The notes beneath the pieces were generated by a model. That model searched no databases, was not told the origin of the DNA, and saw only the letters and a program-made list of their open reading frames with translations. DNA of 64,000 bases from Balneolaceae bacterium (GTDB taxonomy: Bacteria > Bacteroidota > Rhodothermia > Balneolales > Balneolaceae). Shown piece after piece: positions 7,093 to 48,496 of this stretch (its first letter is position 1; each line of letters starts with the position of its first letter). The position numbers and the translations under genes are program-made. The stretch spans positions 1,822,976 through 1,886,975 of the forward strand of contig CP051242.1 in assembly GCA_017795005.1 (NCBI GenBank), in the 5' to 3' direction.

Positions 7093-7145
7093 ACATCCCC
7101 CGTCATGCTATTCGCATGACACCCCCTTCAAAGGGGGAATTTATA
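7093..7145 (-). repeat. Left composite palindrome of the DUF559 element
   Basis: Outer ACATCCCCC (7093-7101), then a hairpin with stem GTCATGC/GCATGAC and loop TATTC (7102-7120), then the palindrome CCCCCTTCAAAGGGGG (7122-7137), then AATTTATA. Read on the minus strand, it matches the right end in the same block order. Confidence 0.8.
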
Positions 7146-7153
7146 GGAGAATA

Positions 7154-7531
7154 CTATTCAGTAGATCTTAATTTATTAATTATGTGTTGCAGATATTGAA
7201 GAGTACTATCTAAATCTTTTTTGATATCCAGATCGTCAATTCTAATAAATTGGATACCTAGTTCTTCAATTTCTTTCTGTCTTTTCTTATCTAGAACAAT
7301 AGCAGATTCTGAATCATGAGAACTCCCGTCAATTTCAATAGCCAAGTATAGTTCGTGACAAAAGAAATCAACGATGTAGTTTTTTATGGGAACTTGTCGA
7401 TGAAATTCAATTCCTAGTTTCTTTTCCTTAATCTCTTTCCACAGAAGAATTTCGCTGAGTGTACTATTCTTTCTTAACTCTCTGGCAAGTTGCTTCAACT
7501 GAGGATTATATGGAAGAATTGTATTTGGCAT
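7154..7531 (-). CDS. DUF559 endonuclease-domain protein (PD-(D/E)XK/Vsr-like fold)
   Basis: 125 residues, the normal size for DUF559. Family features seen are an N-terminal helix with LRKNSTLSEILLW, then GIEFHRQVPI, then the nuclease core with D55 in YIVDFFC, E66-x-D68 in AIEIDG, and a closing strand FIRIDDLDI. The motif order D...ExD fits a metal-dependent PD-(D/E)XK active site. Most DUF559 proteins have no proven role; nicking or cleavage of DNA is inferred from fold similarity to very-short-patch-repair endonucleases. The ATG at 7531 lies inside the conserved inner arm of the right palindrome, so translation starts within the repeat. It is bracketed by inverted palindromic modules (see mobile element). 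Confidence 0.85.
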   Translation of the reverse strand: MPNTILPYNPQLKQLARELRKNSTLSEILLWKEIKEKKLGIEFHRQVPIKNYIVDFFCHELYLAIEIDGSSHDSESAIVLDKKRQKEIEELGIQFIRIDDLDIKKDLDSTLQYLQHIINKLRSTE

Positions 7532-7534
7532 AAT

Positions 7535-7591
7535 AAATTCCCCTTTGAAGGGGGATGATCAATTTCGTTTAGAAATTGATCCGGGGGATGT
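7535..7591 (+). repeat. Right composite palindrome of the DUF559 element
   Basis: Starts AAATT, then CCCCTTTGAAGGGGG (7540-7554), then a perfect 10-bp hairpin with stem GATCAATTTC/GAAATTGATC and loop GTTTA (7557-7581), then CGGGGGATGT (7582-7591). The arms match the left end read in reverse, but the hairpin stem is unrelated in sequence to the left one (GTCATGC). Pairing is therefore conserved while sequence is not. It ends 16 bp before the valS stop codon. Confidence 0.8.
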
Positions 7592-48377: not shown

Positions 48378-48466
48378 GTTGCTCTGCAACGAGTTAAAAT
48401 GTTTTACTGGAATGTCAGCCTATCGGCTGACAGGCTTCGGGGGTATTCCGAAGGAGATCTTCGGAA
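48378..48466. repeat. Cluster of three perfect hairpins
   Basis: GTTGC-TCT-GCAAC (48378-48390), GTCAGCC-TATC-GGCTGAC (48414-48431) and TTCCGAAG-GAGAT-CTTCGGAA (48446-48466). Together they look like a REP-type composite insertion that has replaced the downstream part of the signal-peptide stub at 48496. Confidence 0.7.
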
Positions 48467-48472
48467 CGAGGT

Positions 48473-48496
48473 TAAGAGTGTACACAGATATTTCAT
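48473..48496 (-). pseudogene. Truncated copy of the oxidoreductase start (stub 2)
   Basis: ATG 48496 followed by AAATATCTGTGTACACTCTTA, matching stub 1 almost base for base (stub 1 has TAC for TAT). Homology stops at the palindrome cluster. The 58-nt spacer to the small-TM gene copy 3 matches the spacer between copy 1 and the real oxidoreductase. Confidence 0.6.

Follow-up and report, generated by a model that had tools for sequence, protein, structure and literature searches.

DUF559 nuclease genes are associated with BoxC-like repeats in distant bacteria

Genes of the DUF559 family are found beside repeats of the BoxC/PIT type in widely separated bacterial lineages, and this association of protein and repeat is solid enough to be treated as practically certain. 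It appears somewhat probable that BoxC-like repeats have DUF559 as their cognate nuclease, which would mobilise them much as RAYT transposases do REPs, with an unrelated fold of the Vsr/EDxHD type. The recurrence of this pairing in distant lineages, E. coli among them, suggests DUF559 as the long-missing partner of BoxC/PIT. More tentatively, DUF559 and BoxC/PIT-type repeats could constitute a bacteria-wide class of minimal mobile elements unlike any transposon known so far, in which the nuclease would act on folded (hairpin or triplex) ends and the dispersed repeats, BoxC included, would be gene-less copies. The observations behind these readings are the association itself, its lineage specificity, dispersed gene-less copies, paired hairpins and presence/absence polymorphism.

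The window, that is, the whole stretch of 64,000 nucleotides analysed from a Balneolaceae bacterium, contains one such unit at positions 7093-7591, with uvrD and valS on either side. Inverted modules bracket a 125-aa minus-strand gene, and each module runs from an outer G/C box through a hairpin, variable in sequence, to a C5/G5 palindrome. The features are as follows:

7093-7101, no strand: left outer box ACATCCCCC, G-rich on the opposite strand, 10/10 complementary to the right box
7102-7120, no strand: left variable hairpin GTCATGC-TATTC-GCATGAC, with a stem sequence unrelated to the right stem
7122-7137, no strand: left inner palindrome CCCCCTTCAAAGGGGG
7138-7144, no strand: left AATTTAT, adjoining the gene
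7154-7531, minus strand: DUF559 (PF04480) nuclease gene, 125 aa
7533-7539, no strand: right ATAAATT, the inverted copy of AATTTAT
7540-7554, no strand: right inner palindrome CCCCTTTGAAGGGGG
7557-7581, no strand: right variable hairpin GATCAATTTC-GTTTA-GAAATTGATC, with a 10/10 stem
7582-7591, no strand: right outer box CGGGGGATGT

Every part of the inverted composite palindromes described in the original prediction was found, and besides the outer boxes the inner arms are complementary at 90% over 20 nt. The arrangement exceeds chance: its flank score is 23, whereas none of 131 shifted windows scores above 13. The start codon, previously placed within the right-hand repeat, occupies 7529-7531 and is located one base inside the inner edge of that repeat, outside the repeat itself. 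No target-site duplication is visible around the unit in the window sequence. Ordinary terminators around a small gene would likewise put hairpins against the gene ends, but the length of the units (up to 165 bp), their dispersed copies and the G-rich boxes make this explanation scarcely credible, and it was rejected because of the low frequency of such flanks around other ORFs, none of 56 of which shows comparable symmetry (score of at least 20). Elsewhere in the window (48400-48480), a palindrome TGTCAGCCTATCGGCTGACA beside a G5 run was noticed when G/C runs were listed.

The consensus of the window subfamily comprises ACATCCCCC, a stem-loop and CCCCCTTYNAAGGGGG. Among 59 relatives, 12 show this pattern and all 12 carry DUF559, while a reversed control pattern never occurs. 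The compensatory hairpins claimed for the two ends of the window unit are real: in 30 partly related modules of the subfamily the sequence of the stem-loop varies freely and its pairing is kept, and swapping 5' and 3' halves between modules weakens the mean folding energy from -9.0 to -2.2 kcal/mol (p = 1e-14). Individually, 23 of these 30 partly related modules fold with z < -2. A search of Rfam returned no match. Gene-less copies are dispersed through several genomes, with about 40 modules in a Hydrogenedentota genome (G059) that match its one DUF559, and dozens of copies in the sister species G018 and G028. In a Hydrogenedentota MAG (L197, about 1780-2760), several truncated DUF559 5' ends, each with its own module, lie beside a full gene and resemble internally deleted derivatives.

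The protein encoded at 7154-7531 matches the DUF559 profile (PF04480) with E = 3e-25, and its AlphaFold2 model is confident (pLDDT 92). The best structural matches of the model are the catalytic domain of the homing endonuclease I-Bth0305I and the DUF559 structure 3HRL, with weaker matches to PvuRts1I and Vsr, and a profile search agrees with these matches. As judged from the model, DUF559 is a small PD-(D/E)XK-type nuclease of the Vsr/EDxHD fold. Because five acidic or histidine residues (E27, D55, E66, D68 and H72) are invariant across 41 aligned sequences, the protein of the window is likely to be an active nuclease. PADLOC and PHROG gave weak nuclease matches only and no defence assignment. 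There are seven DUF559 matches in the genome of the window, matches are present in 30 of 59 relatives, and decayed copies with stop codons or truncations exist.

Sharing of flanks was assessed by aligning the left flank of each DUF559 gene to the reverse complement of its right flank, with windows shifted by 1.1 kb as the control. In the window genome and its relatives, 42 of 70 DUF559 loci lie above the 99th percentile of shifted windows. Repeats on the same strand are stronger still, with a unit of 60-165 bp directly repeated on both sides of many DUF559 genes. A further 80 loci were taken from named genomes of many phyla, and 51 of the 79 testable ones exceed the control. Counting inverted and direct sharing together, a score of at least 20 is reached by 55% of 147 DUF559 loci and by 0 of 56 other ORFs of the same DNA; these loci are phylogenetically non-independent, yet they span Balneolota, Bacteroidota, Hydrogenedentota, Nitrospinota, Calditrichota, Bacillota and others. 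Matching flanks are absent from about 40% of DUF559 loci. The original prediction would have failed if DUF559 genes of other genomes lacked such flanks. It survives this check, since most of the tested genes have them; the repeats are specific to lineages, and gene-less copies of them are dispersed. Between genomes, flank repeats are shared by 73% of protein pairs that are 60-70% identical (0-5% for shifted flanks) and by 35% of pairs that are 50-60% identical (1.5% for shifted flanks). The rank correlation between protein relatedness and flank repeat sharing (rho 0.243) was reached by none of 500 permutations and is about zero for shifted flanks. Since flank sharing follows protein identity between genomes, the type of repeat goes with the lineage of the nuclease and not with the genomic address.

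This organisation fits well the likeness to RAYT and REP that had been proposed for the ends of the unit. As in REP/REPIN-RAYT (TnpA-REP) systems, a small enzyme gene stands between inverted hairpin repeats, gene-less copies are dispersed, the repeat type is tied to the enzyme lineage, and one or few enzyme genes accompany many repeats. In contrast to RAYT, a Y1 (HUH) tyrosine transposase, the protein encoded here is PF04480 DUF559, a PD-(D/E)XK-type nuclease with a predicted Vsr/EDxHD-type fold. The modules could also be REPs moved by RAYTs, with DUF559 as a passenger, and Y1_Tnp genes were indeed detected in 32 of 59 relatives, and five of the matches belong to the window genome. However, 20 RAYT loci of the same Balneolaceae genomes (L305-L324) mostly have palindromes of their own on their flanks, which differ from the modules, e.g., GCGAAGACCTGAAGGACTTCGC, and one genome (G007) has DUF559 and C-rich modules without any Y1_Tnp match. 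The palindromes at DUF559 lack GTAG as well as CGTC tags, their tags being GGGGGATGT, GGGGTGT and GGGTGAGGG. Because the flanks of RAYTs differ, RAYT is an unlikely mover of the modules, and the passenger explanation as a whole is very improbable. Two parallel repeat-enzyme systems, RAYT and DUF559, coexist in these genomes with separate repeats. It was also considered whether CGTC-tagged REPs belong to DUF559, which is unsupported in general, as such a repeat was seen at a single locus, a KSB1 MAG (L199) with TGTCATTCC..GGAATC resembling CGTC-tagged REPs upstream of DUF559. REPs with this tag reportedly have no transposase (PMC3733652).

If DUF559 is the cognate nuclease of these repeats, the window would hold one autonomous copy of the repeat-nuclease system. 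RAYT transposases are thought to cut at REP repeats, causing copying or loss through repair. Similarly, DUF559 would probably recognise the folded module and may cut or nick at the edge of the box, and the ensuing repair might copy or lose modules, whether single, paired in inverted orientation or enclosing the gene. A REP-like lifestyle would then have arisen with an unrelated nuclease fold, and a function would be found for a nuclease family that occurs across many bacterial phyla.

At least one module was found by eye near each of 11 further DUF559 genes, in Azospirillum, Sinorhizobium, Sphingomonas, Shinella, Neisseria gonorrhoeae, Deinococcus, cyanobacteria and E. coli (thus including Alpha-, Beta- and Gammaproteobacteria), and seven of the 11 also stand out by flank score. 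The DUF559 of N. gonorrhoeae in this set matches PDB 3HRL (NGO0050). Knowledge of BoxC/PIT repeats dates back to the 1990s. The typical module at the distant loci, CCCTCTCCC..GGGAGAGGGTTAGGGTGAGGG, is the known BoxC/PIT/TM repeat sequence, an intrastrand-triplex repeat that consists of a pyrimidine-purine (Y-R) palindrome and a further purine tract and lies between genes, singly or as inverted pairs, in many bacterial genomes (PMC4666352). A systematic study covered repeats of over 260 genomes and linked them to instability, but mobility functions around the repeats were not found; only for the E. coli repeat has triplex formation been demonstrated in vitro (PMC4666352). A Y-R palindrome followed by another purine tract is present in the modules of the window and at loci of many phyla. 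Unlike BoxC, which has a short second loop, the window modules hold a long variable hairpin of 19-25 nt there, and with their C5/G5 arms they depart from the strict E. coli consensus CCCTCNCCCN3-6GGGNGAGGGN3GGGNGAGGG. In the window module, the outer box resembles the second purine tract of BoxC, to which it would correspond by architecture, and the modules may accordingly be viewed as a hairpin-bearing variant of BoxC/PIT (intrastrand-triplex type) repeats. The proposal of an undescribed minimal mobile element is partly supported; its ends are not undescribed but resemble repeats already known, from which they differ by the hairpin of their second loop. A literature search, mostly outside subscription journals, returned no work tying DUF559 to these repeats and no named cognate enzyme for BoxC/PIT. 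A specific enzyme, if confirmed, would make the old question of how BoxC/PIT spread testable in E. coli K-12, which carries ycjD.

Like the window, E. coli has a DUF559 gene (ycjD) adjoining BoxC; it differs in its fixed sapF-fabI site and in having BoxC on the 3' side only. The neighbouring BoxC fits the strict E. coli consensus. The stop codon of ycjD falls within a degenerate BoxC; next come a partial duplicate of the 3' end of ycjD and a second, perfect BoxC (L337, 1762-2330). The gene is present in about 3,350 of 5,426 genomes, and elsewhere the sapF-fabI site is held by eefRABCD, for which ycjD is exchanged in other lineages (PMC12817139). In an even sample that is strongly confounded by phylogroup, the median number of BoxC matches is 21 in strains with ycjD (n = 37) and 6 in strains without it (n = 22). 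Strains of the O157 type have about 15 BoxC without ycjD.

Four E. coli BoxC sites were compared across strains, with changes left unpolarised. At pstB-pstA, a clean 92-bp presence/absence polymorphism contrasts AACCGTGT-[84 bp]-AACCGTGT with a single AACCGTGT, which forms an 8-bp direct repeat and occurs a third time inside; this is the only clean insertion-like junction among the four. The phnP-yjdP site is polymorphic but untidy, ypfG-tkt holds another repeat in some strains, and the zntA-tusA region is unchanged in length in nearly all strains listed. BoxC loci are known to be prone to rearrangement in E. coli (PMC4666352), and DUF559 might serve in housekeeping, processing or repairing the unusual DNA structures of the repeats without any movement, with adjacency kept by recombination at the repeats. 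The Vsr-like fold would suit such a role, as would the Caulobacter DUF559 protein VsrA, which is linked to mismatch repair and acts like a mismatch repair enzyme (PMC12907096). On the other hand, the many lineage-specific copies in one genome, the decayed copies and the locus-independent co-segregation resemble a selfish element, and the housekeeping explanation is considered improbable.

Comparison of orthologous sites gave one clean occupied/empty pair for a copy of the gene. At locus L082, G018 has the arrangement unit-gene-unit where its sister species G028 has one repeat unit, a difference of 600 bp between flanks that are 90-91% identical; it is compatible with insertion or with loss through recombination between direct repeats. 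Over 400 kb, the synteny of the two genomes is too diverged and too noisy for indels of solo units. The valS-uvrD interval is occupied by a DUF559 unit in the window genome, in G014 of another genus and in a Balneola MAG (L148); G001, of the same genus as the window genome, has no DUF559 unit there, G032 carries a module pair lacking the gene, and in G002 the interval contains a gene-less unit that belongs to a different subfamily. An exact loss of the 7093-7591 unit, as envisaged earlier, was not seen in relatives, where orthologous sites are occupied, too diverged or provided with other repeats.

The main rival to a RAYT-like role is that DUF559 acts as a free-standing nuclease of the homing type. 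It would then invade BoxC-like repeats by cutting module pairs and being copied in by repair, while the repeats spread otherwise. Its closest solved structure by fold is that of the homing endonuclease I-Bth0305I, with which DUF559 has the fold of the catalytic domain and the conserved acidic and histidine residues of EDxHD homing endonucleases in common; the gene can occupy the linker position of a gene-less unit (valS-uvrD, G032 vs G000), and co-variation of nuclease and repeat type is equally expected. In contrast to these endonucleases, DUF559 has no extra DNA-binding domains and no intron or intein, and on both sides of its genes stand whole modules or whole units, apparently not the halves of one split target. 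The larger number of BoxC in ycjD-bearing strains would not be caused by homing into BoxC either. Homing is thus rated unlikely, if less so than a housekeeping function, and a nuclease that mobilises its own repeats is preferred.

Two observations concern the valS-uvrD interval. In the Balneola MAG, the DUF559 unit adjoins a truncated duplicate of the uvrD start on its left, with the full uvrD on its right, which suggests that the unit was the site of a transfer or of a break-repair event. The empty site of G001 holds a palindrome similar to those flanking RAYT genes in Balneolaceae.
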